A program made the position numbers and the translations under genes. From a virus, in IMG/VR virus record IMGVR_UViG_3300045885_000299, positions 1-64,000 of that record: a stretch of DNA of 64,000 nt. One strand, written 5' to 3'. Positions 10,812 through 58,947 of the stretch are shown here, piece after piece (position 1 is the stretch's first letter; every line of letters begins with the position of its first letter). Below the pieces are notes generated by a model. That model did not search any database. It saw only the letters and a program-made list of their open reading frames with translations, and had not been told where the DNA came from.

Positions 10812-10841
10812 GCTACCGCCCACCGACAACGCGGCTGCCCC
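10812..10841 (-). promoter_or_regulatory. Late intergenic element, copy C
   Basis: Minus strand GGCAG, 5 nt, TTGT; the right half (CTRGCGCTT) is degenerate here. It lies between the stop of the 727-aa gene and the lysozyme-like gene, about 45 nt before its ATG. See copies at 17090, 24390, 27235, 27639, 44636, 50638, 55156 and 57998. Confidence 0.5.
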
Positions 10842-10848
10842 GGCTAGC

Positions 10849-13032
10849 TCACATCACCCACACGACTTGCGGATGCTGCGCGCTCGTCGCTGGGCCACAG
10901 CCGTTGAAGGTCAGGCTGAGCGAAGCGGCGATGGGGTAATCCGTGCTCGGGCTCTGCGGCGACGTGCCTGTCGGGCGGGTCCACAACGACACGTAGCGAA
11001 TCGCATCCCGATCCTCGGGCGTGCTGAACTCGAAGTTGGTGTACGGCGTGGCCGTACCGCCCGCGGGCAGGGTGGCCGTAAAGAAACCTTTGCCGAACGA
11101 CGGGTTGACCGGCTCCTGGTCGGCGCCCTCGAACACGAATGACAGGTAGGCATCGCCCGCCGTGCCATCGCTGCCACGCTCCACGATGCTCGTGAAGCCC
11201 GTCCAGCCGCTCGTGCACAGCGCGCGTCCGGCCAGCTGGTAGTTGTCATCGAAGCTGCCCAGCGTGTCGCCGCCGAACTCGTTGACCGGCACGCACCCGC
11301 CAATGGGCGGGACTTCGCCGGTGGTGATCTCCAGGCGGTACGAGGTCTCGAGCGCCGAGCCGCTGGTGTTTTCGACGCACAGCGCCAGGATGTTCTCGGC
11401 AGTGTCGGCATACGTGATGTCCGTGTAGCCCGTGATGTGGGTCGGCGTCACCCCGTCGCCTACCCCATACACGTAGATGCCGGCGGTTGTCGCGGCATCG
11501 TCAATGGTCAGCGTCGATGTGTTCGTCGCGTCGGTTTCGCCAACCAGGACGTTGGCCTGGATGACGATGCCACCCCCTGCCGGGCCATCAATCGCCCTGA
11601 GCGAGCACAACAGCCCAATGCCACCGCTAATCTCCAACTCGACTGGCGCATCGAGATGCGTGTGCATGTGCGTCGGGATACGCCCAGCAACCGGGAACAT
11701 CTGGACGATCTCGTTGCAGCCGCTGGTAAAGGTGCACGTGAAGTCGATCGGGTAGCGGACTACGGTCGGCGTGTGCAGCAGTTCGAGCGGCACCGCCAGG
11801 TTCATGCGGTTGTAGATATCGCCCACGGACGGGTCGATCACCGAGCTGTAGGCGAGCATCGTCCCGTTGACGTAGACGCCGATCGGCGTGGCGTCCTCGA
11901 CGTGCGCGTCCAGCAGCGCGCTCACAATGTCGCCGGCAGGCAGCGTGAACTTGTGGCGGTAAAAGACGCGCTCGCCTATGGCGGCGTTCGGAAACAAGGC
12001 CAGCGCGTGGGTGACGCTCTGCGTCTCGGGCAGGATGAACGGCGGCAGCGGCGCCGGCGGCGCCGAGATGGCAACGCTGGTCGTGGCCGGGAACTGCCAA
12101 CTCGAGTCGTCGTAGTCGTATGCGGTCCAGTCACCACCTGGTGGCGGCGGCGTGACCGTATTGGGTGGCGCCACGAACGAGACCGAGATGCGCGGGGTGA
12201 ACGTGTAGTTGGTGGTCGTGTTCTGTGGGTCCAGGCCAGTGGGCATGCCCCACACCGAGATGTAGCGCGCAGAGGCGAGCTCCTCGGGTGTCCAGGCGCT
12301 CGAGTTATTGCGTATCTCGTGCTGGCCGTTCGTGAGGTTGACCATCAGTTGGCCGGTCGAGTACCTGATGCCCTGGTGGTCGGCATCTTCCAGCAGGTAG
12401 GCGACGTAGAAACCGCCCTGCAGCGCCGGGTCGATCAGCGTGTAATCCACGATGAACTGCGACCAGCCACCAACGGGCACTGGCTGAGTGCCCGCTTTGA
12501 CCATGCCGGTGGTGAGGAAGCCGGCCGTGATCTCGTCGCCAAACTCGGGGATCGACGGCGGCGGGATGTTGCCGCACATACCAACGAAGCGGCCGCTGAA
12601 GTGCCATGTGTAGTCGTACGGCGTGCTGACGTCGGGCGCGCTCGCCGTTCGCGGCGCAATGGACAGCTTGAGCCGCGTCCCAGCCGGCGGCGTTCCTCCA
12701 ATAAAGTTGCCAGCCGCGTACTCGGGGTCCTCGGCGCTCGGCATGACCGTCACGTGGGTCTCGGGGAAACCGTCCAGCGTGGCGCCGTCCGGGTCGATGA
12801 AGCGCCACCAGCAGCGGTAGGGGCCGTTTTCGCTGACCGGGTCGATGCGGTACTTGATGAAGAAGTCGGTCCAGCCGTACGGCAGGTCTATGATCGCCAC
12901 ATCGCGTTCACCCTCCGCTCGGCTGGCGTCGACTTCACTGCCAGTCAGTGGAGCGAGGGGCGCACACTGGCCCGGCACCGAGTCGTACACCCTGACCTGG
13001 TTGGCCAGGCTGGCGGCCAGGATCAGCACCAT
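10849..13032 (-). CDS. Tail or adsorption protein with repeated beta modules (727 aa)
   Basis: Large strand-rich protein with no enzyme motif. Three copies of one module are visible: near residue 53 (YGWTDFFIKYRID), near 190 (GGWSQFIVDYTLID) and near 620 (SGWTGFTSIVERG). The last two end in closely matching segments (RYISVWGMPTG and RYVSLWTRPTG). The middle has a sugar-binding-like segment with SALLDAHVEDATPIGVYVNG. Six or more Cys are spread through it. The position at the end of the tail cluster suggests host recognition. Confidence 0.7.
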   Translation of the reverse strand: MVLILAASLANQVRVYDSVPGQCAPLAPLTGSEVDASRAEGERDVAIIDLPYGWTDFFIKYRIDPVSENGPYRCWWRFIDPDGATLDGFPETHVTVMPSAEDPEYAAGNFIGGTPPAGTRLKLSIAPRTASAPDVSTPYDYTWHFSGRFVGMCGNIPPPSIPEFGDEITAGFLTTGMVKAGTQPVPVGGWSQFIVDYTLIDPALQGGFYVAYLLEDADHQGIRYSTGQLMVNLTNGQHEIRNNSSAWTPEELASARYISVWGMPTGLDPQNTTTNYTFTPRISVSFVAPPNTVTPPPPGGDWTAYDYDDSSWQFPATTSVAISAPPAPLPPFILPETQSVTHALALFPNAAIGERVFYRHKFTLPAGDIVSALLDAHVEDATPIGVYVNGTMLAYSSVIDPSVGDIYNRMNLAVPLELLHTPTVVRYPIDFTCTFTSGCNEIVQMFPVAGRIPTHMHTHLDAPVELEISGGIGLLCSLRAIDGPAGGGIVIQANVLVGETDATNTSTLTIDDAATTAGIYVYGVGDGVTPTHITGYTDITYADTAENILALCVENTSGSALETSYRLEITTGEVPPIGGCVPVNEFGGDTLGSFDDNYQLAGRALCTSGWTGFTSIVERGSDGTAGDAYLSFVFEGADQEPVNPSFGKGFFTATLPAGGTATPYTNFEFSTPEDRDAIRYVSLWTRPTGTSPQSPSTDYPIAASLSLTFNGCGPATSAQHPQVVWVM

Positions 13033-13036
13033 CGCT

Positions 13037-14086
13037 TTAGGTCGCGCTCCGCCGCAGGCGCAGCCCGCAACTCACCTGCCTGAGCGTCCCGCCGATGGCC
13101 GTGAGCTTGACGCGCAGCGTGGTCTCGGCCGCGATCGCGCCGCCGCCCGCCCAGCTCGCAACCGCGGTATCCATGTCCGATTCCTCGGCCAGCAGCGTCG
13201 GGAAGGCCGTGCCGCAGATGCTCGTCGCACTCGCCGCGGAGAACGTGGGTGAGGGTGCCGCGAGTATGTCGAAGCGCGCCGAGCCGCCCGCCGAGTCGCC
13301 GGTCAGCGCCACCGCGGTGACCGTGCACGCGAACGGCACGTACACGTCGGCGTAGTCGCCGACCAGCGGCGGCGCAGTGCTGGCGCCGAAGTTGACCGAG
13401 AACGCGCCGACCATCGGCCGCATGGCCAGGATCGAGCCGGCGGTGCCACTCGGCACGGCGGTCAGCACGTCGCCAATCGCGTGCCCGACCGGCATGTTGT
13501 GGTCGGACGCCAGGAAGTCGTGCACCCGCCCGTGGTGATCGTCGGGCCCGATGCCGGCCAGGGCGCTGTGGTCAGCCATGCCGCCGCCAGCCGTGCCGCC
13601 AGTCGTGTGAAAGTGGTTGCCTGGCGCGGCCTGGCTGGCGCCCGAGCCGAGCGTGTGGTGGACCGCCGAGCCGGCCGCGTCGGCGTCGATGTGCAGCAGA
13701 TGGCGGTGGTCGATCTGGCCGCCGCTGGTGACGCCCTGGTGCGTATGGTTGGCCAGCGACCAGCCGGCCGTGCCGACGTGGAAGGACGAGATTTCGCCGT
13801 CCGGCTCAATGTCGAATAATTCCTGGCCCAGGTGGTTGATGACCTGGAAGATGGGCGCGGTCTGGCCGACCGTGCCCTGCACGATCAGGCTGATCGTGGT
13901 CCCGTTGGGCGAGATGATGGTCGTGTTCGAGCCGCCCGCCATCGTCAGCCCGCCGAGCACCGTGACGCTGTTGGCAAACACCACCGGCTGATCGGTCATC
14001 ACGCCGGTCAGCAGATCGGCAAACTGGCGGATGTGGGAAGCCCGAATGCGCTTCCCCGGGCCGATTTCAGAGACGTCCAGCGGCAT
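13037..14086 (-). CDS. Tail fibre with HxH metal-site repeats (349 aa)
   Basis: The N-terminus is a helical attachment segment (ISEIGPGKRIRASHIRQFADLL-like). The middle has repeated His pairs (NHTH, DHRH, NHFH, DDHHGRVH), as in trimeric phage fibre shafts where the His residues bind metal ions. The C-terminal about 130 residues form a separate strand-rich domain. The order N-anchor, shaft, head is typical of a short tail fibre. Adjacent to the nozzle-like gene. Confidence 0.75.
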   Translation of the reverse strand: MPLDVSEIGPGKRIRASHIRQFADLLTGVMTDQPVVFANSVTVLGGLTMAGGSNTTIISPNGTTISLIVQGTVGQTAPIFQVINHLGQELFDIEPDGEISSFHVGTAGWSLANHTHQGVTSGGQIDHRHLLHIDADAAGSAVHHTLGSGASQAAPGNHFHTTGGTAGGGMADHSALAGIGPDDHHGRVHDFLASDHNMPVGHAIGDVLTAVPSGTAGSILAMRPMVGAFSVNFGASTAPPLVGDYADVYVPFACTVTAVALTGDSAGGSARFDILAAPSPTFSAASATSICGTAFPTLLAEESDMDTAVASWAGGGAIAAETTLRVKLTAIGGTLRQVSCGLRLRRSAT

Positions 14087-14089
14087 CGG

Positions 14090-16084
14090 TCAGGGGCTCC
14101 AGTAGTAGGACTCGGTGTCGTACAGGCCGCCTTCTTCACCCAGCACCGGGTAGTCGTAGATCGACTGGTGGCCCGTATCAAGCTGCGGAATGGCCTGCGT
14201 CAGCGCCAGCGCGACCTGCCACTCGGGCAGGCGCCCCGGCTCCTGGTTGCGCGTGACCCGCACGCGATCGACCAGGACCTTCCACGGGTAGCCGTCAGGG
14301 TCGCGGAAGCGCGCCGGCTTGGCTTCCTCGCGCAAGCGCTGCAGCTTGCGCTCGAGCAGGAACGTGTCGCGTTCGATCTGCGCCAGGTTGTCGGCCGTCT
14401 CGGCGCGGCCCAGCACACCCGTGATGTTCCAGTGCCACTTGGTCTGGATCGCCACCCGGCCGTGTATTGCAACGGCCCGGATTTCCGGGGGACTGATCGG
14501 GTCCATATTGAAAAAACGCAGCCGCAGCGCAACCCATCGACATTGCGTCCCCTCGGGGAACGTCAGCTCGCACGTCGGGCTCGAGCGCGCATCGCCGAGT
14601 GCGCCGCGGCCGGCGTCCAGGTCGGTGCGCCAGCGGCCATCCGAATCCAGCTGGTAGGCGACCTCGACCCAGCGCCAGGCGCCCATCAGTCGACGGCTCG
14701 AGAGGCGCACCGTGAGCAGCGTTTTCTTCTCGTCGGGCAGGAGAAAATCGAACTCGGGCAGGGTGGCCTCGGGCTGCCACGGCTGCATGTCGTCAATCAC
14801 GTAGCGGCAGTTCGGATCGGAGATCGGATCGTCGCCGTTTGCCGGCAGGATCACCTGCGCGTGACCGGCCGTACCGGCGCTGATGAACAGGTGCGGCGGT
14901 GATTCGGCGTCGGTCAGGTCGTGCTGGCGGAAGTACAGGGCGGATGCCTCGACGCTGCCCATCGTCAGCCAGCTGTGCCATTTGCCGGTGCGCGAGTCGC
15001 GGCGCACGACGTAGCTGGTCTGTGTGTCGTCATCGAACAGGCTGGCGATCGTGTAGCGCAGCGTGTCGCACACGCCAACGACGCGCCCGCGCACCTGGCC
15101 GAGCGCATCGGCGTCGCGGCTCGGGCTGATGTTGGCCGCGGCACCGCTCGTCTGGCTCGAGGGCTGATACTCCCACAGCCCGTTGCCGTTGGGCACCAGC
15201 ACGATGCCGCCGCGCCACACCAGCGGCCAGCAGTTGTCAGGGTCGCGCCGATCGAAGTCCAGGTAATGCGCGGCCGTCCCGGCCACGCCCGGTGGGATGC
15301 CCCACAGACCGTCAGTTTTCCCGACCCACAACGTGACCAGGCCGCCGCCGGCGAGCAGGCTGGTGATCGGTGCCGACGTGTCGCCGATGAGCGCGGTGCC
15401 CTCGGTCCAGGCCGTGCCGACTGTCGTGGCCTGCACTTTGTTCGACCAGCCGCGATACAGCGCGCTCCGATCGGACACCAGCGCCTCGGCCACTTCGCCG
15501 CCAGTCGCGGAGCTCCAGGTCGCCAGGTCGAGCGAGTGCTGCAGCGGGGTGTCGAGGCCGAGCGCAACGTAGGCGCGCTCGCCGTAGATCGCCAGGTCGC
15601 GGCACGGCGCGGGGAACGTGGCCATCTTGACCCAGCCCGGCGGGGCATCCAGGCGCATGTACAGGTGGCTGCCGGCGGTGCAGATGAGCGTGCCGTTCAT
15701 CTCCGTGTACGTGCGCCGCGCGTCGACCTCGCTGCCCAGATCCGGCAGCGGCTCCCACACCTTGGGCGGCGCGGGGATGATGCGGTTGCGATCGGCCTCG
15801 ACGTCGTGGCCCTCGAAATAGCCGACCGTGTCAGTGTCCGACTCGGCGCGTTTCTGGCCGTAGCCGCCATGCCACGACGACTGCGCCACGGGCGAGTCAT
15901 ACGGCTGGTAGTTGCCGAAGCGCCGATCGCCCTGGCTGACCTTGGGCGCGAACGGCTCGAGGGCTGTCACGTCATAGCCGCCGGCGGTCAGCAGCAGCGG
16001 GTCGCCGTCGATCTCGACGTCGCCGATCGGCGGCGCGTGGTCCGCCAGCTGGCCGCCGTAGCCGCCCAGGCGCAGCTCGCTCAC
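14090..16084 (-). CDS. Putative tail nozzle / tubular protein B-like (664 aa)
   Basis: A strand-rich protein with repeated WGIPPG, WEYQPSS and WHSWLTMG-like blades that suggest a beta-propeller. Size and position, directly after the adaptor-like gene and before the fibres, match T7 gp12-type nozzle proteins. This rests on position and fold style, not on a clear sequence match. The GTG at 16084 overlaps the preceding stop (GTGA), which fixes the start. Confidence 0.55.
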   Translation of the reverse strand: MSELRLGGYGGQLADHAPPIGDVEIDGDPLLLTAGGYDVTALEPFAPKVSQGDRRFGNYQPYDSPVAQSSWHGGYGQKRAESDTDTVGYFEGHDVEADRNRIIPAPPKVWEPLPDLGSEVDARRTYTEMNGTLICTAGSHLYMRLDAPPGWVKMATFPAPCRDLAIYGERAYVALGLDTPLQHSLDLATWSSATGGEVAEALVSDRSALYRGWSNKVQATTVGTAWTEGTALIGDTSAPITSLLAGGGLVTLWVGKTDGLWGIPPGVAGTAAHYLDFDRRDPDNCWPLVWRGGIVLVPNGNGLWEYQPSSQTSGAAANISPSRDADALGQVRGRVVGVCDTLRYTIASLFDDDTQTSYVVRRDSRTGKWHSWLTMGSVEASALYFRQHDLTDAESPPHLFISAGTAGHAQVILPANGDDPISDPNCRYVIDDMQPWQPEATLPEFDFLLPDEKKTLLTVRLSSRRLMGAWRWVEVAYQLDSDGRWRTDLDAGRGALGDARSSPTCELTFPEGTQCRWVALRLRFFNMDPISPPEIRAVAIHGRVAIQTKWHWNITGVLGRAETADNLAQIERDTFLLERKLQRLREEAKPARFRDPDGYPWKVLVDRVRVTRNQEPGRLPEWQVALALTQAIPQLDTGHQSIYDYPVLGEEGGLYDTESYYWSP

Positions 16085-17067
16085 ATTGGTCCCGGCGTCG
16101 AGTGTGCCGCCAGATAGTCTCCGTTGCGTCGCCAGCCGAGCGTGGGTGCCGCCCACGGCGTGATCGAGCGCCGCGGCGGATGCGACATGAGCAGCTGCGG
16201 ACGCAGGTCGTTGGCGTCGTTGCGCGCGACCTGGACCAGCTCGAGGATGCGCTTGACGTCCTTGACCGGCGCACCGTTGGCGCCCCACATCCACAGCCGC
16301 TGGATGGCCACGGCCAGCAGGTACTCGACCATCTGTCCGTCACGATCGTCAGCGCCGACCGTGACCACGTCGCTGGCCTGGCTGAACGGCGGCAGGATGC
16401 CCTTGCCGACGATGCGCAGGAAGTGGTCGGGCGGTGGCGCGTTGCGGAACGCGATCGTGCGCGTGACGGAACCGCCAGACTGGACCGCGTTGCGCACGCT
16501 CCACCCGTAGCCCGCCGCATCCTCACCCGGTTCGTCTCGCTCGCGCAGGACCTCGATGCCGAGCACCTCCTGGATCGCGGGCGGGCACGGATAGAGCGTC
16601 GTGCCAGTGGTCGTGGTCGTGCTCAGGTCCTCGACGCGCCGCCAGAAGAAGATCGGCAGCATGCGGATCGCCGCATTGAGTGCCGCCAGCTTGCGTTCGC
16701 GCGACCAGTGCCAGTTGACCTGGTACTGGTCGCCCACCGAGCCCTGGACGAGCAGCGTGCCGCCACCGAAGGTGAAGTGCCCGACCTGGGCGGTGCCGCC
16801 CTCGAGTCCGTCGTAGGCAGTGATGCGCAGCTCGCGGCCGATGTTCGAGGTGGCCGCGCCGCCGTGGTAGTAGAACCAGCCGTACTTGTAGGTGTTGCTC
16901 TGCTCGAAGCGCGTGGCATCGCGCACGCTGATGGTGTCGCCGGTCACATGGGTGAGCGTGCCCTCGGCATAGTCGCCCATGCGCGAGGCCAGCTCGCGGA
17001 TCAGGTCAGCGGCGGTGGTCGCACCGCTGGGGGCTGGGCTTTCGCCACCAGGCAGGACGATCGGCAT
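16081..17067 (-). CDS. Putative head-tail adaptor (T7 gp11-like position, 328 aa)
   Basis: It begins with a helix LIRELASRMGDY and has a second helical block WHWSRERKLAALNAAIRMLP, followed by strands. This resembles the layout of podovirus adaptor/gatekeeper proteins. It is followed by the nozzle candidate with a GTGA overlap. The start ATG 17067 is 23 nt after the late element at 17090-17116. Confidence 0.55.
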   Translation of the reverse strand: MPIVLPGGESPAPSGATTAADLIRELASRMGDYAEGTLTHVTGDTISVRDATRFEQSNTYKYGWFYYHGGAATSNIGRELRITAYDGLEGGTAQVGHFTFGGGTLLVQGSVGDQYQVNWHWSRERKLAALNAAIRMLPIFFWRRVEDLSTTTTTGTTLYPCPPAIQEVLGIEVLRERDEPGEDAAGYGWSVRNAVQSGGSVTRTIAFRNAPPPDHFLRIVGKGILPPFSQASDVVTVGADDRDGQMVEYLLAVAIQRLWMWGANGAPVKDVKRILELVQVARNDANDLRPQLLMSHPPRRSITPWAAPTLGWRRNGDYLAAHSTPGPM

Positions 17068-17089
17068 GCGCCTAGCAGCGTGCCGTCCG

Positions 17090-17116
17090 AAGCGCTAGGG
17101 CCCAAGGCGGCTGCCC
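17090..17116 (-). promoter_or_regulatory. Late intergenic element, copy E
   Basis: Minus strand GGCAG, CCGCC, TTGG, GCC, CTAGCGCTT: a full match to the 26-nt consensus. It sits between the stop at 17119 and ATG 17067. Confidence 0.65.
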
Positions 17117-17118
17117 GT

Positions 17119-18081: not shown

Positions 18082-18096
18082 GGCTCCCTCCAGGAA

Positions 18097-21054: not shown

Positions 21055-21071
21055 CAGTGGAAGCTCCCGAA

Positions 21072-24366: not shown

Positions 24367-24389
24367 GTTGGCGCCTAGCGTGTTTGAGA

Positions 24390-24416
24390 AAGCGCCAGGC
24401 GCCAACCTGACTGCCT
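24390..24416 (-). promoter_or_regulatory. Late intergenic element, copy H
   Basis: Minus strand GGCAG, TCAGG, TTGG, CGC, CTGGCGCTT: full match to the consensus. Directly after the small Pro-Glu gene and 24 nt before the glycosyltransferase start. Confidence 0.65.
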
Positions 24417-24501: not shown

Positions 24502-24896
24502 GCTTGCCTCGCCCAGGTGCCTGAAAGGTTGGTGATGAGGTAGCCGTCGACGCCGTCGCCCACCAGCGTGACGGTGTCGCCGACCACGTCGGTGGAGCCC
24601 GTGTTGATGAGGTCCTTGTCGTCGGCCGGGGTCACGCCGCCGCCGATGATCTGATCGAGCGGCTGCGGACTGATCGACAGGCCGGTCGTGGTGCTGAGCG
24701 TGCGCACCACGAAGGTGAACATCAGCCCGGCCCTGGTCGGCGGCAGGGTGACCACCAGGTCCGCGGCGCCGGTGATGAACACCTTGCCCGAGTCGGCCGC
24801 GGTCAGCGTGCGGTTGGCGGTCAGCGTCGTGGTCGCCGGACGGAAGCTGCCGTCCGGCCGAAAGACGGTGGTGTCGGTCACGCCCGTCGCAGGCAT
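24498..24896 (-). CDS. Putative capsid decoration / head protein (132 aa)
   Basis: Begins MPATGVTDTTVFRPDG and contains LTANRTLTAADSGKVFITGAADLVVTLPP, a beta-strand pattern common in small head-surface or fibre-head proteins. It starts at the capsid gene's stop (TGATG), so the two are co-translated. Decoration or stabilising role inferred. Confidence 0.65.
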   Translation of the reverse strand: MPATGVTDTTVFRPDGSFRPATTTLTANRTLTAADSGKVFITGAADLVVTLPPTRAGLMFTFVVRTLSTTTGLSISPQPLDQIIGGGVTPADDKDLINTGSTDVVGDTVTLVGDGVDGYLITNLSGTWARQA

Positions 24897-26122
24897 CAGT
24901 AGGTCCCTCCTACCTCGAGACGCATGATCCAGCGCTCGGTGGTGCGGCCCCAGCCCGCGATGAGCCACCAGCCATGATTAATAAAACGCTGGAGAATGTC
25001 GAACGGGCCGCTGGTGATCGCCAGGCCGAAGGGCCCGGTCTCGTCGCTGGCCAGCTTGGTCACCGACTGCGGACCGAAGATCGGCACCGGATAGACGTTG
25101 GTCGACCCGTCCGAGCGGACCGCCGACTTGACCACCGTGCCCGCGGCGTGCGCGTAGCGGCAGCCCATCGACTTGGTGGCGGTGTCGGGGCCAGGATCGG
25201 CGAACTGCACCGTGAGCGTGGTGCTGACGATGTTGGTCACCAGGCCCGACTCATTGGTGTCCGACCAGGTGTTGCCCGTCTCCTGGCCGTCCTGGATGGC
25301 GATCCAGTCACCAATGGCGATGTTGGTCGCCGCGGCGACGACGATCTGGTTCTCGCCCGGGGTAATCGGGCTGGCGAGCGTGGTGCTGGCCGCGGCCGCG
25401 AAGGTGCTCGAGGCACCCACGCCCCAAAACGCCTTCCAGTTGGCCATCGTGCAGAACCGCAAACCGCCCCACACGCCAATCTCGTTGTTGAACAACAACT
25501 CTTCGCGCTGGTACGTGCCGAGATTGGTGAGCAGCGAGTCCTGGAGCAGGTCGTAGTGCACATTCGGATGGAGCACCGATGCGTAGAAGCCGTCCTCGAA
25601 GCTCGGCGTCTTGGTCAGCCGAGCCAGGGTGACCGCGCGCTGGATGAGGGCGGAGGTCATCTTGTTGGTTTCGCTGAGCCCGGTCCGCCCGGTGATGCCG
25701 CCCGGGTACATGACGCGCTGGCCTGAGCCGAAGATCGGCCGCAGCACGAAGTCGATCGACTCGGCCTGGTTCTGCCCGCACGCCTCGGCGGCCTGCTGAT
25801 ACACATCTGGATAGGCCACCGTCTTGAGGAACCTGGTCACCTGTACCGCGTTGCCGTACTCGGCCAGGGTGACCACGAACTTGCTGGCCACCATCTGCTG
25901 CGGCGTGACGTCGGACACCTCGGACAGGGTGTTGGGCTGTGGCGGCATCTGCTCGAGGATGGGCACCTCGACCGAGTTGCCGCGCTGACCGTTCTGCACG
26001 GCCTGGCGCAGGTCGGTGAACTGATCGAGACCAGTCATCGACACCGCGGCCATGAGGTAGTCCTGGTCGTAGAGGGGCCGTACCTCTTCCGACAGGACGC
26101 TGGTGGATGTAACGCCGTCCAT
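24896..26122 (-). CDS. Major capsid protein, N4 gp56 family
   Basis: 408 aa. The pattern matches the N4 gp56-type HK97-fold capsid family: an N-terminal LYDQDYLMAAVSMTGLDQF segment, KFVVTLAEYGNAVQVTRFLKTV (about 82-103), VLHPNVHYDLLQDS, and GEIG-like NNEIGVWGGLRF (about 215-226). The insertion at about 235-310 is strand-rich and Ala/Thr-rich. It lies between the scaffold-like gene and the decoration gene. AAAGGTGAG precedes the ATG. No late element is present directly upstream, so it is probably transcribed with the scaffold. Confidence 0.85.
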   Translation of the reverse strand: MDGVTSTSVLSEEVRPLYDQDYLMAAVSMTGLDQFTDLRQAVQNGQRGNSVEVPILEQMPPQPNTLSEVSDVTPQQMVASKFVVTLAEYGNAVQVTRFLKTVAYPDVYQQAAEACGQNQAESIDFVLRPIFGSGQRVMYPGGITGRTGLSETNKMTSALIQRAVTLARLTKTPSFEDGFYASVLHPNVHYDLLQDSLLTNLGTYQREELLFNNEIGVWGGLRFCTMANWKAFWGVGASSTFAAAASTTLASPITPGENQIVVAAATNIAIGDWIAIQDGQETGNTWSDTNESGLVTNIVSTTLTVQFADPGPDTATKSMGCRYAHAAGTVVKSAVRSDGSTNVYPVPIFGPQSVTKLASDETGPFGLAITSGPFDILQRFINHGWWLIAGWGRTTERWIMRLEVGGTY

Positions 26123-27218: not shown

Positions 27219-27440
27219 CTAGACGCTAGGCGTCCTTCTGCTAGGGCCCAAGCGCTCTGCCTGCACGAGCTCGCCCTCGTCGCCAGAGAAGCGCACCGCG
27301 ACCTCCTGGCGGATGTGGCAGTCCATGCAGCGCGGGAAGTTCAGGTGCACGACGACACTCCCGCTGCGTACCTCGTCGCGCATCTCGACCAGCACGCGGT
27401 GGCGCCCGCACCTGTCGCAGGCAACCGACACGCCAGCCAA
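27219..27440 (-). CDS. Small zinc-binding protein (73 aa)
   Basis: CDRCGRHRVLVEM near residue 8 and CMDCH near 38 make a four-Cys ribbon with strand-rich sequence between. The start may be TTG 27440, directly after the neighbour's stop, or GTG 27431. The late element copy F lies inside its 3' end. Unknown function. Confidence 0.6.
   Translation of the reverse strand: MAGVSVACDRCGRHRVLVEMRDEVRSGSVVVHLNFPRCMDCHIRQEVAVRFSGDEGELVQAERLGPSRRTPSV
27235..27262 (-). promoter_or_regulatory. Late intergenic element, copy F
   Basis: Minus strand GGCAG, AGCGC, TTGG, GCC, CTAGC then a divergent end. It overlaps the end of the 73-aa gene and is about 90 nt before the GTG at 27143. A short palindromic CTAGACGCTAGGCG lies just after it. 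Confidence 0.5.
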
Positions 27441-27441
27441 T

Positions 27442-27618: not shown

Positions 27619-27638
27619 GTTCGGGAGCGTGCAGATCG

Positions 27639-27700
27639 AAGCGCCAGAGGCAAACCCGACTGCCCCTGAGCGCTCCAAAATCGACGGTTCTGCAGATTTT
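27639..27700 (-). promoter_or_regulatory. Late element copy I with adjoining hairpin
   Basis: Minus strand GGCAG, TCGGG, TTTG, CCT, CTGGCGCTT at 27639-27666. Just upstream of it (27677-27700) AAAATC and GATTTT form a 6-bp stem. The same arrangement of hairpin then element occurs at 50638-50694. Confidence 0.6.
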
Positions 27701-27747
27701 CGGGCAGCCCGGTTGTCGACCAGCGGTTCGATCGAGAGCGTGTCGGG

Positions 27748-28560
27748 ATGCCGACGCCAATCCCGGTGCTCGACCTGGCCGTGGCCGACTACCAGCCCGC
27801 TGGCGTGTTCGGCATGTTCTCTGGCGGCCACGATTCGCTGTGCTCGACCCACATCGCGGCCCAACACCCCAGCTTCTCAGGCGTGTTGCACGTGAACACC
27901 GGCATCGGCATCGAAGAGACGCGCGAGTACGTGCGCCAGACGTGCGATCGCTTCGGGTGGCGACTGTATGAAGTGCGCGCGCCCGAAGGGCTGTATGAGC
28001 GGCGCTGCTTGCAATACGGCATGCCTGGCGGCCCGGTCGAGCACGGGATCATGTACCAGTTGCTCAAGGATGAGCAGGTGCGCATTCACGTGCGCACCCA
28101 CAAGGGTCGCCGCGGCGGCAAGGTCGGCCTGGTGACGGGTATCCGCGCGGGCGAGTCCAACCGCCGCATGCGCGTCTACCCGACGCCGATCCGGCGCGAG
28201 TTTGCACAGCTGTGGATCAACCCGATTCTCGACTGGTCCGCACGCGACGTGAACGACTACATCGCCGAGCACGATCTGCCGCGCAATCCGGTGGTCGACA
28301 AGCTGCACCGCTCAGGCGAGTGCCTGTGCGGCGCCCTGGCGCGGCCGGAAGAGCTGGACGAGATCGGCTTCTGGTATCCCGACGTCGCGCGCCGCATCCG
28401 CGACCTGGAGCGGACGTGCTACGAACGCGGGCTGCCCCATCGCTGGGGCGCCGACCAGGCGCAGAAGATCAACCCGAATCAGCCGTGGCTGCCGCTGTGT
28501 CAGGACTGCCCGACGCGCTGGGAGAGCAGCGAGCCGGCCAGCTCGCGGTATTTGGCGTAG
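27748..28560 (+). CDS. PP-loop ATPase, PAPS reductase-like
   Basis: 270 aa on the plus strand between minus-strand late genes. FSGGHDSLCSTH (about 27-38) is the PP-loop in the His variant often seen in phage homologues. ECLCG (about 191-195) is a C-terminal Cys cluster. Family members activate a substrate with ATP and include PAPS reductase and DndC, so sulfur transfer to DNA or tRNA is possible; the target cannot be told here. Its 3' end overlaps the start of a small minus gene by 61 bp. Confidence 0.8.
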   Translation: MPTPIPVLDLAVADYQPAGVFGMFSGGHDSLCSTHIAAQHPSFSGVLHVNTGIGIEETREYVRQTCDRFGWRLYEVRAPEGLYERRCLQYGMPGGPVEHGIMYQLLKDEQVRIHVRTHKGRRGGKVGLVTGIRAGESNRRMRVYPTPIRREFAQLWINPILDWSARDVNDYIAEHDLPRNPVVDKLHRSGECLCGALARPEELDEIGFWYPDVARRIRDLERTCYERGLPHRWGADQAQKINPNQPWLPLCQDCPTRWESSEPASSRYLA

Positions 28561-44610: not shown

Positions 44611-44635
44611 GGCAGTGGCCACACGTTCGAGCGCC

Positions 44636-44663
44636 AAGCGCCAGCGGCCAACGCCGCTGCCCC
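44636..44663 (-). promoter_or_regulatory. Late intergenic element, copy A
   Basis: Minus strand GGCAG, CGGCG, TTGG, CCG, CTGGCGCTT. It would start the transcript of the 239-aa gene and the giant gene. Confidence 0.65.
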
Positions 44664-50618: not shown

Positions 50619-50637
50619 GCCGAGAGCTTCCGCCCTC

Positions 50638-50694
50638 AAGCGCTAGACGCTAAGGCCTCTGCCTGCCCCCAAAATCGACAGAAGTGTCGATTTT
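50638..50694 (-). promoter_or_regulatory. Late element copy G with perfect hairpin
   Basis: Minus strand GGCAG, AGGCC, TTAG, CGT, CTAGCGCTT at 50638-50665. Upstream of it, 50671-50694 forms a perfect 10-bp stem (AAAATCGACA / TGTCGATTTT) with a 4-base loop. It is a terminator or processing hairpin for the preceding gene followed by the element for the next. Confidence 0.7.
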
Positions 50695-52102: not shown

Positions 52103-52107
52103 TTCGC

Positions 52108-52698: not shown

Positions 52699-52716
52699 GT
52701 TGAGAAAACCTCCTAA

Positions 52717-54540
52717 CTAGGCCGCCCCATTCGGGCTGCGGGTGGGTGAGCCGCCGGCCAATGCGGCGCCCATCTGAGGACCTGTGCCCGGGTTCTGCAG
52801 CGTGTCGTTGCCGCCCTGCGCGCCGGCCTGGCTCGGGCCGATCGCCGCGGGCTGCTGCGGGCCAGAGCTTTCCTCGGCGTTCTGCATGTTGAAGGCGCCG
52901 GCGGCGACCATCATCTCGAACATGTCCGGGGCCCATTCGCGCAGCCGCTCGGCCACGTGCGCCTGGATCATCAGCGGGTGGTTGTCGCTGGTTTCCAAAA
53001 TCAGCTCGCGCTCGGCATCAGTCACGCTGTCGATCAACTCGGGGACGAAGCCCCACGCGCGTTTGCGACTCAGGAACTTGGCCGCCACGAGCTGGGCGAG
53101 CATGAGTGCGCGTTGATAGACCTCCTGGCCGAACTGCGGGCCCAGGTTGACGTCCTTGCGGTAGTAGCCGCGAATGTCGCGCGGGCCAACGGTGATGAGC
53201 TGCAGATCGGATGCGGCGCCCTGGTCGCGCTTGGCGGCCGGCAGGCTGACGGGCTGGCGGTGGATGCGCTCGAGGATTTGCTCGGCGATGGTCAAGCACT
53301 CGGTCAGTCCGCGGGCGAGCGCGCGCGAGGCGTTCAGCACCTTGCCGCGATCGACGCCCTGGACCATGTTCAGCGCCAGCGCCGAGCGGATGCCGGGCGG
53401 CATCTGACCGGCCGCGGCGCCGAGCGCGTTCTGGCGCGTGGCCAGCCGCAGCCGTTCCCATGCGTCTCCAACCGCGGGGAGCGGTCCTTCGCCGGCGAAC
53501 GGCTCGACGGTTTCGCCGGGGTTCAGGTTGAAGCTGGTGCCTGGAACTTGCGAGAACTGGCGGCCGTCGAGGAAGCGCGTGAGCGTGACCGGCCAGGCCG
53601 CGCGGGACGTGATGGCCACGAACTGCGACGCCATGATCGACTCCAGCTCGTAGGCCTCTTTGCCGTTGGTGAGAAAACCGCGGTACTGGCGCGCCTTGTC
53701 GCCGGCCGCGGTCGGCAGCTGGCGGAACGCGAACTTGACGAATGGGATGCGGCCGTACTCGTTGGCCACGAAGCCGTCGTTGTCGGCGGACGGGTAGAAC
53801 GGCTGCTCGTTGACGAAGGCGCACCGCCAGGAGTCGTTCCAGTATTGGGTGAAGGTGACGTACTGCGTCGGCGACATGCCCATCGTGATGCGCCGGATGG
53901 CCGGGAAGATCGACGGCGGGAACCAGTATTCGAGATCGCTGACGGTGCGCTGGTAGTGCTGGAACAGGTGCAGCGGATGGCCGGTGTGCGACTCGATGGC
54001 GAAGCACGTCCCGCGCTCCTGGAGCTCGAAGGTGAAGGGCACGTGCATGCGCCGCTGCAGGTCCCAGGCATCCACGCGCGCGCCGTAGCTGGCAGCGCTC
54101 TCGTTGCGGTCCGGCGTAGGCGGGCTCTGCAGGTGCTCCGGGAGCGGCTGGTAGCCGACGAACACCCAGCGCGCGCGGTGGACGAGCATGCCCCACAGCA
54201 CCAGCTCGATCACGTCCATGTCCTCGCGCCACGAGCTCAGCAGCGCGCGACACCACTTGCTCCGCGCGTCCGCCAGCTTCTGCCATTCCTCGGTCGCTTT
54301 GGCGGCGGGCACGGTGACGCCGATGTACTGGTCCGGCTGGACGGCCTGGACGCCCTGGTCGACGTCGCCCGGCGCCGTACCCAGGCGCACGGTGCGGTAG
54401 CCCTCGGGCGCCGGGATCGAGAACTGCTGGAAATACAGGTCCTCTTCGGCTTGCGCGGCCGAGTCGAGCTGCGCCTCCTGCTGCCACTGCTCGTGCAGCC
54501 ACTGGAGGACCTGGTTACGGGTCGGCTTGGGCGACGGCAC
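52717..54540 (-). CDS. Portal protein
   Basis: 607 aa, between terminase and head genes. The predominantly helical layout, the central QYWNDSWRCAFVNEQPFYPS stretch and the long helical C-terminus ending in a Gly/Gln-rich tail match portal proteins of podovirus-like phages. The assignment rests mainly on size, place and overall pattern. The start is the GTG at 54540, directly after the stop of the small membrane gene. Confidence 0.7.
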   Translation of the reverse strand: MPSPKPTRNQVLQWLHEQWQQEAQLDSAAQAEEDLYFQQFSIPAPEGYRTVRLGTAPGDVDQGVQAVQPDQYIGVTVPAAKATEEWQKLADARSKWCRALLSSWREDMDVIELVLWGMLVHRARWVFVGYQPLPEHLQSPPTPDRNESAASYGARVDAWDLQRRMHVPFTFELQERGTCFAIESHTGHPLHLFQHYQRTVSDLEYWFPPSIFPAIRRITMGMSPTQYVTFTQYWNDSWRCAFVNEQPFYPSADNDGFVANEYGRIPFVKFAFRQLPTAAGDKARQYRGFLTNGKEAYELESIMASQFVAITSRAAWPVTLTRFLDGRQFSQVPGTSFNLNPGETVEPFAGEGPLPAVGDAWERLRLATRQNALGAAAGQMPPGIRSALALNMVQGVDRGKVLNASRALARGLTECLTIAEQILERIHRQPVSLPAAKRDQGAASDLQLITVGPRDIRGYYRKDVNLGPQFGQEVYQRALMLAQLVAAKFLSRKRAWGFVPELIDSVTDAERELILETSDNHPLMIQAHVAERLREWAPDMFEMMVAAGAFNMQNAEESSGPQQPAAIGPSQAGAQGGNDTLQNPGTGPQMGAALAGGSPTRSPNGAA

Positions 54541-54690
54541 TTAGATCAGGCGGGCAACTGCGAGGGCGGCGATCAGCACGAGCGGGATTTTCGGATCGGG
54601 CACGCCGAAGATCAGGAGGATGGCGACCAGGACCAGGACGATGATGGCGAGTATCCAGCCAAGGGTGATGGGCTGAATGGTGAGGTTCAC
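54541..54690 (-). CDS. Two-span membrane microprotein (49 aa)
   Basis: Starts MNLTIQPITLGWILAIIVLV and has a second hydrophobic segment (PLVLIAALAVARLI) after a short VPDPK loop. GTG 54690 overlaps the KTSC gene stop. Could be a holin-like or membrane-anchoring protein; the packaging context does not decide. Confidence 0.6.
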   Translation of the reverse strand: MNLTIQPITLGWILAIIVLVLVAILLIFGVPDPKIPLVLIAALAVARLI

Positions 54691-54911
54691 GACACACGCT
54701 CCCACGGATAGCGGTTCTTGATGAGCTGGCCGAAGGCCTGGCCGACGCTCGGGGCGGTGTGCAGCTGCTCGAAGATCTCGGCCGGCACGTCGTGGTAGCG
54801 ATACACGCCACCCGTCGTGGAGAAGGTGACCTCGAGGTCGTTCGTCTCGTCGTCGTAGCGCAGCTGGCTAATCATGGTCGAGCCCTCGACGGGCACGGTG
54901 AGCTCGGGCAC
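54687..54911 (-). CDS. KTSC domain protein (74 aa)
   Basis: SQLRYDDETNDLEVTFSTTG, VYRYHDVPAEIFEQLHTAPS and GQAFGQLIKNRYPW match the KTSC domain pattern. KTSC proteins are small and associated with lysine-tRNA synthetase-like and phage contexts; their role is not established. Coupled by overlap to the membrane microprotein. Confidence 0.75.
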   Translation of the reverse strand: MPELTVPVEGSTMISQLRYDDETNDLEVTFSTTGGVYRYHDVPAEIFEQLHTAPSVGQAFGQLIKNRYPWERVS

Positions 54912-54914
54912 GGC

Positions 54915-55136
54915 TCAGCGTTTCGACTTCGATTTCGACTTCGATGCGCTCTTTGCCTTGGCCTTGGGGCGCGACGGTTTGGCGCGGTTGGCGGTCGGCG
55001 CGGCGCCACCAGGTGCCGCCGGCATGGGCATCGGTGCACCCATCCCACCGCCCATCGGGGCGCCCATCCCGCCCATCGGCATTTGCGGCGGACGACGGAG
55101 GCCGGCGCTCGGGCCGGGGACTGGCATACGTGGCAT
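54915..55136 (-). CDS. Gly/Met/Pro protein with basic Ser-Lys tail (73 aa)
   Basis: MPRMPVPGPSAGLRRPP, a Met-Gly-Pro repeat (MGGMGAPMGGGMGAPMP) and a C-terminal (SK)n tail. The tail is strongly basic, so DNA or nucleic-acid binding is possible. It lies 20 nt after late element copy B and after the terminase gene. Function unknown. Confidence 0.55.
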   Translation of the reverse strand: MPRMPVPGPSAGLRRPPQMPMGGMGAPMGGGMGAPMPMPAAPGGAAPTANRAKPSRPKAKAKSASKSKSKSKR

Positions 55137-55155
55137 GGCCGGAGCGTGGCCCCCC

Positions 55156-55183
55156 GAGCGCCACGGGCCAACGCCGCTGCCCC
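55156..55183 (-). promoter_or_regulatory. Late intergenic element, copy B
   Basis: Minus strand GGCAG, CGGCG, TTGG, CCC, then GTGGCGCTC (two mismatches). It lies between the terminase stop and the 73-aa gene. Confidence 0.6.
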
Positions 55184-55258
55184 AACACCCGTAGCCACAG
55201 CAGGGCGGACAGGCGCAACGCTGGCCGTGGCCGTGCAAGCACAGCCAGGCGTTGCGCC

Positions 55259-57226
55259 TCACGCGCTGCGCAGGTAGCTGCGCGGGCTGTGACTGCGCCG
55301 CGCGGCGCGCATGCGCAGGTCCTCGAGCCAGTTGCGGCCGAGCGGCAGATTGCTGTCCGGCGGCGGCCCGAAGTCGCGCAGGTAGCTGGTGGTGCGCCCG
55401 GGCTGGACCAGGTGCCGAAAATAGATGTGCGCCAGATAGCGCAGGCAATCGGCCAGGTGGTTGTAACGATCGCGCGGCTTTTCCGAGAGCGGCTGATCGT
55501 CGCGGCGCGGCTTGCGCCAGCGGTAGAACTTGGCCTCCATGCGCATGTTCGCGCACGACGGATCGCAGAAGTAGTGCGAGGCCTGCTGCATGCGCTCGAC
55601 GTCGCGCTCGGTCGCGGCGTTATCGGCCAACCGCTCTTCGAGCTCGATCGTCGCGTTCAAGCGCTGCTCGCCGTCCAACTTGGGCAGGTCCTCGAGCCAG
55701 AAGCCCATGTCGGCCAGGACCAGCGCCAGCTTTTCCTGCTGGTACTGGTGCCACAGCTGCGGGTCGCGCAAGAGCGCACCGACCACCGGCAGCGACTCCG
55801 CGACGTCGGGCTTGCCCACTTTCTGATGGCCAGGGTGCGCCGGGTCGTCAACCATGATCGGCTGCGACGGCCAGCCGGCGGCACGCCAGTTGTCGACCTC
55901 CATGTACCACGAGCCCTGGTCGACCCACAGCACCTGGACGTTTCGGCGCCACGGCCGCTCGTCCAGCGCCGCGGCGACCTGACCAGCCGTCACCCCGCGC
56001 TGGTAATACTCGTCGATCTGATGCGCGCGATCGCGCCACACCTGGTACACGCCGACCGCGTATTCGTTGATGCCGCCGGACGGGTCGGCCACACACACGA
56101 TCGGGTGGGTGTCGTCGTACAGGACGGGGCGGACGTGGACGCGCTCCTTGAACTGGTGCAGCACGCGGTGCAGCTCGCCGCTCGGTCGGGCGCCGTAAAT
56201 GGCGGCCACTTCGGCGGCCGTCGACTCCTTTTCGGCGTCCCGGATGGCTTGTGAGCGGCGACCGAGCGGAAACTTGAAGAAGTTTTCCCAGGTCGCGCCC
56301 TGAAAGCCCTCCCACGGCGATTCGGCGTCCTGTTCGTGCATGGCCTGGTAGCAGCGCTGCCAGAACCAGGTCTCGTCATCCTGCGCCGAGCTGATGATTA
56401 AGGCCTTGCCTTCTTTGTCGGCCAGCGTCGGCAGCACCAGCCGCCGGAACTGGTCGCCGGACAGGTACTCCGATTCGTCCATGACCACCAGGTCGATCGA
56501 CGTGCCGGCCGCGGTGCGGTCGTCCTCGAGCGAGATGCCTTCGATGCGCGAGCCGTTGTGCAGGACGATCAGCTTCTCCTGCTCGATGTTTCTCCATGTG
56601 CTGGCTTCCGCTCGCTGGCCCAGGTCCTCGAGCAGCTGGCAGACCATGTCAAAGACGCGGCCGACGCTCTTGTTGATCGGCGCCGCGACCCATATCCACG
56701 AGCGCGGCCGTGCCAGCGCGAGTGAGACTGCTTCGCGCGCGGCATGAAACGACTTGCCGCCGCGGCGACCCCAGGCGACGATGCGAAAGCGAGCCTCGCT
56801 GCGCGCGACAGCCTGCTGCCAGGTCCAGCGCCCGGGTATGCCGTCGAGCGCCCACTGCTCGGTCTCGGCCTGGTAGGCGCGATAGGCGGCCTCGCGCTTG
56901 TGGCCATTGGTCATATGACCTAGGTCATCCAGGTGCGCGCGCACCTCGAGCTGCATGTCGGCGTCGGCCGGCATGTAGATGCCGCCGGGGATGTAGCCGA
57001 CGCGCTTGAAGGACTCGAGCCGATCGGCGGCATGGAAGGGCTTGTAGGTCTGCGAGCGGGCCTCGGCGCGCAGCACCAGGGCCTGCACCGGGTTGGCCTT
57101 CTTGGACTCGGTCAGCCGGCGCGCGTTGACCTGGCCGTGGTGGCGCCCCAGCTCGTTGAGAAAATCCTTGACGTCGGGCGCGCGTGGCGGGCTCAGACCA
57201 GGACCTCGTCTAGCAGCCAGCCGCAT
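55259..57226 (-). CDS. terL: Terminase large subunit
   Basis: 655 aa. Walker A WGRRGGKS (about 152), Walker B VVMDESEY (about 247) and a coupling segment IISSAQ (about 270) form the packaging ATPase. The nuclease half has VCVADPSGGINEYAVG (about 380) and the final YNHLADCLRYLA (about 590). It works with the small subunit to fill the head through the portal. The start is tentative: ATG 57226 overlaps the zinc-ribbon gene by 34 bp and lacks a ribosome site. Confidence 0.9.
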   Translation of the reverse strand: MRLAARRGPGLSPPRAPDVKDFLNELGRHHGQVNARRLTESKKANPVQALVLRAEARSQTYKPFHAADRLESFKRVGYIPGGIYMPADADMQLEVRAHLDDLGHMTNGHKREAAYRAYQAETEQWALDGIPGRWTWQQAVARSEARFRIVAWGRRGGKSFHAAREAVSLALARPRSWIWVAAPINKSVGRVFDMVCQLLEDLGQRAEASTWRNIEQEKLIVLHNGSRIEGISLEDDRTAAGTSIDLVVMDESEYLSGDQFRRLVLPTLADKEGKALIISSAQDDETWFWQRCYQAMHEQDAESPWEGFQGATWENFFKFPLGRRSQAIRDAEKESTAAEVAAIYGARPSGELHRVLHQFKERVHVRPVLYDDTHPIVCVADPSGGINEYAVGVYQVWRDRAHQIDEYYQRGVTAGQVAAALDERPWRRNVQVLWVDQGSWYMEVDNWRAAGWPSQPIMVDDPAHPGHQKVGKPDVAESLPVVGALLRDPQLWHQYQQEKLALVLADMGFWLEDLPKLDGEQRLNATIELEERLADNAATERDVERMQQASHYFCDPSCANMRMEAKFYRWRKPRRDDQPLSEKPRDRYNHLADCLRYLAHIYFRHLVQPGRTTSYLRDFGPPPDSNLPLGRNWLEDLRMRAARRSHSPRSYLRSA

Positions 57227-57387
57227 TCGCGGCAATGTGTCCACGGCCGCTTCGGGTCGTCGTCCACCATGCGCCAGCAGCGCGCGCAAATGCGGCGTGA
57301 GCGCGCGGCACGGCTGGTCGCGTCCAGCTGGCGATCGCTGTTGTAGCGCCGATCGCGCGCCAGGACGGCGCGTTTCAGAGAATCCAC
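57193..57387 (-). CDS. Zinc-ribbon protein between terminase genes (64 aa)
   Basis: CARCWRM (about 34-40) and CRECGWLL (about 52-59) form a four-Cys zinc ribbon in a basic protein. GTG 57387 overlaps the preceding stop in TAGTG. Its place between both terminase genes suggests a packaging or HNH-like cofactor role, not shown. Confidence 0.65.
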   Translation of the reverse strand: MDSLKRAVLARDRRYNSDRQLDATSRAARSRRICARCWRMVDDDPKRPWTHCRECGWLLDEVLV

Positions 57388-57980
57388 TACGACTTGCCCA
57401 TGACCCGATCGCGCACGGCGAGCACGATGGTCCGAAACAGGTCCGGGTCGTCGGTCAGGTAGGCCTCGACAATCAACAGCGTCTCGCGCACGGCGGCGTT
57501 GACCTCGTTGCGCACGACCTCGCTCTTGCGTGATTCCGTGTAGCGCTGGCCCTGGTCCAGCAACTTTCTGAGCAGGTCGAGGGCCTTGGTGTAGTGCGGT
57601 GTGTCGACGGACATGCCCTGCTGCTCGGCGCGGCGGATGTTGACCCAGGTGCCGGCGACCATCTGGCACAGCAACCTGTACTGCGGCCCGTAGGCGCCGT
57701 AGTGGTCCAGCAGCTCGTCGCGCACCTGCTGGAAGTACGGCCCCCACTCGCCCTTGAACATGGGCTCCTTGACGGCGTACCAGCGCGAGTAGTTGGCCGC
57801 GGCGCGGCCGCGCTTGCCGGCCGCCATCGCCTCTTCGCGCGACTTCCAGGCGCCGCCGGGGCTTTTGAGCGGGGGGCCGCTGGGTTTGGGCATGTCGGGG
57901 TGGAGCTCTCTCAGTGTTGGGCGTGGCGGGCCCGGTGGGCGGCCGGTTGGGCGGCCAGTTCGTGGTGTCACCACGGACAC
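57387..57980 (-). CDS. terS: Putative terminase small subunit (197 aa)
   Basis: Pro/Gly-rich N-terminus, then a helical body (about 80-195) with a basic patch (NIRRAEQQG) and LLRKLLDQGQRYTESRKSEVV. Position directly before terL and the helical layout suggest TerS; no clear DNA-binding motif is visible. The start GTG 57980 is 18 nt after late element copy D. Confidence 0.55.
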   Translation of the reverse strand: MSVVTPRTGRPTGRPPGPPRPTLRELHPDMPKPSGPPLKSPGGAWKSREEAMAAGKRGRAAANYSRWYAVKEPMFKGEWGPYFQQVRDELLDHYGAYGPQYRLLCQMVAGTWVNIRRAEQQGMSVDTPHYTKALDLLRKLLDQGQRYTESRKSEVVRNEVNAAVRETLLIVEAYLTDDPDLFRTIVLAVRDRVMGKS

Positions 57981-57993
57981 GAGCGTGACGGCT

Positions 57994-58947
57994 TCACGTT
58001 GCCGCCGACAACGCGGCTGCCTGCCTGCCGTTCATGGGGATGACGAACTCCGATTTGCGCTCGGAGATGAGCGTATCGAGGACCTGCAGGCAATACGGCC
58101 AGCCCTTCATCTTGCCGTAGCGGTCGCGCTCGCGGATGGTGCCGGTCATCTGGCGTGCCTTGGTTTCGTCCACGGCTTGTTCGAGCACCAGCAGGAAGTC
58201 GTTGCGGTCGTAGCCACTGTTGATCCAGACGTGGGTCAAGGCGAGCATGGTGCGCTCGGGGTTGTTGTCGTGGAAGCCGTATTCGCGGGCTGCGACGTAG
58301 CTGCGTAAGGCCGGGTCGATCTCGACGCCGTTCTCGGGGCGCCCTTTCGGATTGCTTTTGCGGATCGGATTCCGACCTATGGGTCCACCGGGCGGCCGCA
58401 GCCGCTCCGTTGTGCCGTTTGTGTGCACAGGCTGTGGATAACTTTCGATCGGGCTGCCTCCCGGGAATCCCGGTGGGTCCGGTTCTAGTTCAAGTTCTAG
58501 TTCTAGGTTCCGGTTCGAGGTTCCGGTTTCCGGCTCCCGGTTCCCGGTTAAGTGGAAATCTAGATCGTGCTCGACATTTTCTAGATCGTGTCCGACATTT
58601 TCTAGATCGTGCTGGGCCTCGAAGCCAGGCGGCGGCGGGATGACGGACGCGATCTCCTTGGCGTTCGGCGTCTGATGCTTGCCGAATGTCACGACCTGGA
58701 TGTAGCGCTGCTCGCAGGCCGCGTAGCGCACGATGAAGCCGCGGTTGCCGAGCTGGTCGAGCAGGCCGTTGGCGTCGACGTCGTCGTAGGGCAGCACGGC
58801 CACCTTGATGCGCTTGGGCCGATCCTCGAGGCGGCCCTCGCGGTCAGCCAGGCACCACAGGCCCTGGAACAGCAGGCGTGCCAGCGGCTCCAGCTCGGCC
58901 AGGTCCTCGTTGGCAAAGAAGCCGGGCTTGAGCGAGCGGGTTCTCAT
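57994..58947 (-). CDS. Phage replication initiator (O-like)
   Basis: 317 aa. The N-terminus RTRSLKPGFFANEDLAELEPLARLLFQGLWCLADREGRLEDRPKRIKVAVLPYDDVD has the winged-helix layout of phage replication initiators. The middle is a low-complexity region (two ENV-spaced repeats of HDLENV, then LELELELEPD) encoded by the iterons at 58560-58622. The C-terminus is a further helical domain (ALTHVWINSGYDRNDFLLVLEQAV). This resembles lambda O, whose gene contains the origin. ATG 58947 overlaps the upstream stop. Confidence 0.7.
   Translation of the reverse strand: MRTRSLKPGFFANEDLAELEPLARLLFQGLWCLADREGRLEDRPKRIKVAVLPYDDVDANGLLDQLGNRGFIVRYAACEQRYIQVVTFGKHQTPNAKEIASVIPPPPGFEAQHDLENVGHDLENVEHDLDFHLTGNREPETGTSNRNLELELELEPDPPGFPGGSPIESYPQPVHTNGTTERLRPPGGPIGRNPIRKSNPKGRPENGVEIDPALRSYVAAREYGFHDNNPERTMLALTHVWINSGYDRNDFLLVLEQAVDETKARQMTGTIRERDRYGKMKGWPYCLQVLDTLISERKSEFVIPMNGRQAAALSAAT
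57998..58022 (-). promoter_or_regulatory. Late intergenic element, copy D
   Basis: Minus strand GGCAG, CCGCG, TTGT; the right half is degenerate. It lies in the last codons of the replication-initiator gene and just before the putative terS start. Confidence 0.45.
58490..58622. repeat. Iteron-like repeats, candidate replication origin
   Basis: CTAGATCGTG recurs at 58560, 58581 and 58602 with an exact 21-bp step (two helical turns), including CGACATTTT between copies. A flanking stretch at about 58485-58552 repeats GGTTC and TCTAG. All lie inside the initiator gene, as in lambdoid origins. Confidence 0.65.

Follow-up and report, generated by a model that had tools for sequence, protein, structure and literature searches.

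Does this phage mark its late genes with a dedicated signal, and if so, what would read it? The question is raised by a short sequence that recurs at gene junctions in front of virion genes. The phage is uncultivated and probably temperate; it is represented by a 68,797-base virus record, of which bases 1-64000 form the window, the whole stretch of DNA analysed here (67.9% G+C). Nearly all genes of the window lie on the minus strand, and gene starts were set with a purpose-written codon-usage caller together with the geometry of the element itself. Rfam and tRNA scans were both empty.

The gene order (terL, portal-like protein, lysin, giant protein, capsid) is similar to that of podovirus MW202608, and the capsid proteins of the two phages share 28% identity. 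The nearest relatives of the integrase are plasmid integrases of Bacillus, cyanobacteria, Methylorubrum and Rubrobacter, all below 50% identity. The 5009-aa protein combines a DarB-like antirestriction methylase/helicase part (PHROG 10089, E 0), a 2'-5' RNA ligase domain (PF13563, 8e-12), a weak match to ribosome modulation factor and an internal virion protein part; its earlier consideration as a P23-45-like tape measure was dropped in favour of this PHROGs assignment. Neither the giant protein nor the other proteins scanned yielded an RNA polymerase domain.

A 39-nt element at late gene junctions

The sequence-only reading had listed nine copies of a 26-nt element, GGCAG-N5-TTGG-N3-CTRGCGCTT. 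Six of these (17090, 24390, 27639, 44636, 50638 and 55156) match the consensus with at most three mismatches, and the remaining three (10812, 27235 and 57998; exact 26-mers 10814-10839, 27236-27261 and 57996-58021, all minus strand) were overstated, as they match GGCAG-N5-TTG and not the full CTRGCGCTT, with more than three mismatches. The list was also incomplete, a plus-strand copy at 27703 having been missed, and the length was set too short: the alignment of the copies revealed a further conserved block at positions 34-39, nAnGCT or similar, which extends the unit to 39 nt. The phage has at least seven copies of this element and probably ten (Table 1). Across the ten window copies, GGCAG and the TT at positions 11-12 are invariant.

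Table 1. Copies of the element and associated features (window coordinates; PWM, score in bits against the 39-nt profile; L008, the relative described in the text).
Feature	Position	Strand	Remarks
Copy before terS	57983-58021	-	Divergent, GGCAG-N5-TTGTCG, 18-nt spacer; -10-like CACGCT 57982-57987; GTG 57974; weak in window, L008 counterpart
Copy after terL, before 73-aa gene	55143-55181	-	ATG 55136; PWM 44.1
Copy before lysozyme/M23-peptidase virion protein gene (1452 aa)	50625-50663	-	GTG 50618, exactly 6 nt past -10-like GAAGCT; PWM 41.4
Copy before 239-aa gene and 5009-aa protein gene	44623-44661	-	ATG 44610; PWM 43.2
Copy before PAPS-reductase-like gene (270 aa)	27703-27741	+	3 mismatches in 26-mer; -10-like GAGCGT, then ATG 27748 after 6 nt; PWM 14.0
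Copy before 58-aa gene	27626-27664	-	ATG 27618; PWM 47.0, highest; divergent from 27703(+)
Degenerate copy upstream of major-capsid-gene unit	27223-27261	-	4 mismatches; nAnnnT block TAGCGT in register; PWM 4.0
Copy before glycosyltransferase gene	24377-24415	-	GTG 24366; PWM 40.0
Copy before 328-aa gene	17077-17115	-	ATG 17067; PWM 45.1
Degenerate copy before transglycosylase-like gene (ATG 10767)	10801-10839	-	nAnnnT block AAACGT in register, ATG 7 nt later; PWM 9.2
Terminase	55259-57226	-	
Portal-like protein, 607 aa	52717-54540	-	Assigned from gene order only
Lysozyme/M23 virion protein, 1452 aa	46260-50618	-	
DarB-like antirestriction and internal virion protein, 5009 aa	28852-43881	-	PHROGs
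Major capsid protein	24896-26122	-	
Integrase	59248-60117		
111-aa protein, sigma-70 region 4 domain	9905-10240	-	Pfam PF04545, E 7.5e-8, 32.2 bits (cut-off 24.1)
TATAAA, possible sigma-70 -10 of region-4 gene	10250-10255	-	9 nt before GTG; read from sequence

The 39-nt element is real. Scanning the window with GGCAGN5TTGGN3CTRGCGCTT and up to three mismatches returned 7 matches against 0.14 expected from dinucleotide shuffles, the largest number in any shuffle being 2, and the same pattern written backwards did not occur in the whole record. We then scored the whole record with a 39-nt profile built from the six strong window copies and from L008, a 5-kb relative. The scan of the full record that had been proposed placed the six strong minus-strand copies (17077, 24377, 27626, 44623, 50625 and 55143; 40-47 bits) far above everything else, all other places in the 68.8 kb reaching 14 bits at most; with leave-one-out profiles, each of the six still exceeded all non-sites. 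The next-best scores were 14.0 (27703, plus strand, ranked 7th), 9.2 (10801, the 10812 of the earlier list, 8th), 7.5 (inside a gene) and 4.0 (27223, formerly 27235, 10th), compared with a null top score per strand of 6.8 on average and 14.0 at most; 57983 (formerly 57998) fell outside the top 22.

All copies lie at gene junctions, as had been claimed. The strong ones are without exception intergenic and absent from the early regions, and every copy points into late genes. This includes the plus-strand copy, which faces the PAPS-reductase-like gene, the only called plus-strand gene within the late region.

Conservation in a relative

The terminase, portal, capsid and 239-aa proteins and the element patterns were searched against viral and genome collections. 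Only one relative was recovered, L008, with a terminase 80% identical to that of the window. In the comparison with relatives that had been proposed, L008 covers two homologous junctions, and it keeps the element at both. Behind the terminase gene, L008:2853-2891 and copy 55143 are identical at 33 of 39 positions, the six differences sparing all invariant positions, and the following gene begins with ATGCCACGT in both genomes. Before terS, L008:396-435 reads GGCAGTCGCATTGTC and its window counterpart GGCAGCCGCGTTGTC. Positions 35-40 are CACCGT in L008 and CACGCT in the window, followed by an in-frame GTG after 6 and 7 nt, respectively. The terS copy, the weakest on the original list, is thus rescued because L008 has a counterpart at the homologous place.

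Across 84,980 bacterial and archaeal species, each represented by one genome, the 39-nt pattern had no exact match, and nothing else convincing matched the consensus in the viral or genome collections searched. The other pattern matches were discarded, coming from unrelated contigs and resembling coding or tRNA sequence. Likewise, in L032/L033 a loose pattern match accompanied a distant capsid homologue, but lay on the strand opposite the capsid gene and was attributed to chance.

Promoter-like geometry and start codons

The distance between TTGGnn and nAnnnT is 17 nt in nine of the ten copies and 18 nt in the terS copy, whose -10-like block is shifted by one base. A35 and T39 occur together in 9/10 window copies (chance ~5e-14 under base composition) and in three of the four weak copies, which had not been chosen on those columns (~7e-5). 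These two positions, which played no part in finding them, also support the copies listed at 10812 and 27235. Six other GGCAG-N5-TT places exist in the record, none with both A35 and T39.

The spacing of the element had been described as fitting neither sigma-70 nor sigma-54 promoters, and both statements were wrong: the extended element has a 17-nt -35/-10 spacing, and GGCAG-N5-TTGG has the spacing of sigma-54 sites, though not the GC of their -12. With A35 and T39 taken as A-11 and T-7, nine of ten copies combine these bases with a -35/-10 spacing of 16-18 nt. Closeness to TATAAT or TAnnnT including T-12 was not seen; T-12 is present only in 27223, and the first -10 position is C, G or A in every other copy. 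If T39 is equated with -7, GGCAG would occupy -45 to -41, TTG -35 to -33 (within a -35 hexamer at -35 to -30), the spacer block CTRGCGCTT -28 to -20 (GCGCT at -25 to -21) and the nAnnnT -10 positions -12 to -7. The start codon would then fall at +1 to +7 in nine window copies and close to +1 in both copies of L008, and most late mRNAs would be leaderless.

Start codons usually follow nAnnnT by 6-12 nt, mostly without a Shine-Dalgarno sequence; they lie at position 46-52 in nine window copies and at position 47 in both L008 copies. The short distance to the start codon claimed earlier was therefore borne out in nine of ten copies (19-25 nt from position 26, counting the terS GTG at position 48) and failed at 27223, which has no start codon at the expected distance and whose first clear gene (GTG 27143) carries its own Shine-Dalgarno, AAAGGAGA. 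A Shine-Dalgarno sequence precedes one of the eight genes right behind a copy, compared with 17 of 30 other late genes, a modest difference that depends on start codons of our choosing (Fisher p 0.045; rank test p 0.014). A start codon near +1 and the scarcity of Shine-Dalgarno sequences suggest leaderless promoters; against this, G-rich stretches before the start at two strong copies could serve as Shine-Dalgarno sequences. For 50618, 57974 and 10793, the argument from start codons runs partly in a circle. This does not apply to 17067, 24366, 27618, 44610 and 27748, which the caller picked alone, nor to 55136, where the N-terminus is kept in L008. Leaderless geometry in turn predicts start codons, for example GTG 50618, GTG 24366 and the terS GTG 57974.

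A putative phage activator

The element had been proposed as a late promoter or an RNA-level control site. Of these, a late promoter fits best, given the -10-like block, a start at +1 to +7, the few Shine-Dalgarno sequences, the conservation in the relative and the confinement to the late region. We consider it likely that the copies are late promoters worked by the host RNA polymerase and a phage-encoded activator, and that most of their transcripts are leaderless. The -35/-10 remnants (TTG; A-11 and T-7) would be recognised by host polymerase carrying the main host sigma, and the activator would bind GGCAG and the conserved block in the spacer, which flank the -35. The late genes would stay silent until the activator is made.

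The need for an activator is suggested by comparison with a second repeated family, found on the minus strand near 754, 1917, 3146, 6000, 7211, 60180 and 67509 at early genes and the integrase. Its members consist of a palindrome, TTGCRNNYGCAA, overlapping the -35, followed by TATCCT or similar and then GTAGACC, and look like early promoters with a repressor operator. These apparent early promoters share the TTG and a 17-18-nt spacing, have a better -10, and in several cases a Shine-Dalgarno behind. Because the late -10 blocks (CACGCT, GAAGCT) are poor next to TATCCT, the late promoters would seem to need help.

The regulator had been described as a phage factor not seen in this sequence, which may be wrong. 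Among the proteins scanned, only the 111-aa region-4 protein was recognised as being of a transcription type, and we regard it as the best, if tentative, candidate for the late activator; its link to the element is putative. Pfam detected no other sigma region in it, it had no PHROG or PDB match and no tblastn match in the phage collection, and compared with the Ltr families it matches only the generic Sigma70_r4 Pfam model. An AlphaFold model computed without relatives (pLDDT 53) was too poor to use. The gene lies downstream of the weak copy 10801 and may itself be late, which counts against the activator model; with the TATAAA in front of it, a sequence that a consensus scan did not list, it could be made both early and late.

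Alternative readings

The strongest competitor, though an unlikely one, is a phage-encoded alternative sigma that replaces the host main sigma, with the 111-aa protein or an unrecognised early protein as all or part of it. A dedicated sigma would be expected to leave just such a long and almost unvarying motif whose canonical -10 is poor, and the phage does encode a region-4 domain. Yet region 2, the part that melts the -10, was not detected in the 111-aa protein, Pfam scans of most other proteins gave no sigma domain, and the TTG and -35/-10 spacing suit the main sigma. A precedent exists in phages phiEco32 and 7-11, where a sigma-like phage protein serves phage promoters (PMC8948821); here, only region 4 was detected, not a full sigma. 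In a related and slightly less probable scheme, the 111-aa protein would read -45 to -20 and dock on host RNA polymerase, replacing or joining host sigma region 4, with region 2 coming from the host and region 4 from the phage. If true, such a split sigma would mean a holoenzyme reprogrammed for leaderless late promoters.

An RNA-level signal in late mRNA leaders, acting in translation control or as a protein-bound hairpin, would account for the position just before start codons, and at copy 24377 a hairpin of 14 bp is possible (z -6.3). However, of the seven copies folded with their leaders, the other six do not exceed their shuffled versions (z -1.0 to +0.9), no common structure emerges and there is no Rfam match, while a -10-like block and conserved blocks separated by roughly one turn of the helix are in keeping with a site read as DNA. 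Such a signal would also need a further, undetected upstream promoter to transcribe it, and leaderless promoters argue against it, since transcription starting at the start codon would leave the element outside the RNA. We therefore disfavour this reading strongly.

It is just as improbable that the copies are operators or other DNA sites (repressor binding, packaging, recombination) merely placed between genes. Repeated intergenic sites are common in temperate phages, and the early promoters of this one carry an operator-like family of their own, but a fixed distance and orientation to start codons, kept even by the plus-strand copy, is a promoter property. Least credible is a sigma-54 promoter with GGCAG-N5-TTGG as its -24/-12 element and the remainder as leader: the spacing is identical to that of the sigma-54 consensus TGGCAC-N5-TTGCW and the GG is present, but the GC ten bases on is missing at positions 13-14 in 12/12 copies (GG, AG, TG or GT), for which reason we rejected it; the conservation at 19-25 and 35-39 would also be left unexplained.

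Comparison with known late promoter systems

Phage late promoter families are already known as a kind, either as late promoters present in multiple copies and served by a phage activator or sigma (Mu C, phiEco32, P23-45, T4) or as single late promoters with RinA/Ltr; the signal sequence described here was not found elsewhere in the collections searched. Late promoters activated by a phage protein with host polymerase, as favoured above, have several partial parallels. Middle and late transcripts of Thermus phage P23-45 are leaderless. As proposed here, its late promoters are read by host RNA polymerase (PMC7403470); they belong to the extended -10 class, whereas in our element the -35 and its surroundings are best conserved. 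The terminases of the two phages show distant similarity (28%), and P23-45 is not a close relative.

RinA/Ltr proteins of Gram-positive temperate phages, of ~130 aa, act with host RNA polymerase on terS and virion genes (PMC13123087), and here too a small phage protein, of 111 aa, is proposed to switch on such genes. Those systems have one late promoter with several upstream direct repeats (-76 to -32 in TP901-1; -107 to -42 in Phi13), in contrast to about ten separate promoters here, in each of which a single compact element overlaps the -35. The RinA/Ltr systems and that of this phage showed no relation in sequence. In Mu, one activator, C, serves several late promoters (lys, I, P and mom; PMC4461284), although no C/Mor homologue was seen in the proteins scanned here. 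Consensus late promoters and leaderless mRNAs are also treated for AR9 (PMC5312081); that phage uses multisubunit RNA polymerases of its own, none of which was found in the scanned proteins. For a podovirus-like phage with a 5009-aa DarB-like virion protein, the copies would define a late regulon in which each promoter has an exact position and for which a candidate regulator can be named.

Additional sequence features

Copy 24377 is associated with a 14-bp inverted repeat (GTTGGCGCCTGGCG...CGCTAGGCGCCAAC, 24367-24406), which amounts to a further partial copy of the element in inverted orientation (TTGG-N3-CTAGCG, plus strand), placed between promoter and start codon. At copy 10801, leaderless translation from 10793 would cover a short ORF of 8 codons (10767-10793, minus strand) that ends in TGATG, overlapping the ATG of the transglycosylase-like gene and making translational coupling possible. 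Two mutually related A+T-rich hairpins on the minus strand, 50671-50694 (AAAATCGACACTTCTGTCGATTTT) and 27677-27700 (AAAATCTGCAGAACCGTCGATTTT), could be terminators or a further binding site; the first lies 7 nt upstream of copy 50625, the second 12 nt upstream of copy 27626.

The PAPS-reductase-like gene (27748-28560, plus strand) was recognised by PF01507 (2e-18). A Mom family protein (1017-1868, minus strand; PF25680, 3.5e-28) is encoded by a DNA modification gene with an early-type promoter, and a second DNA methylase lies at 8598-9908.
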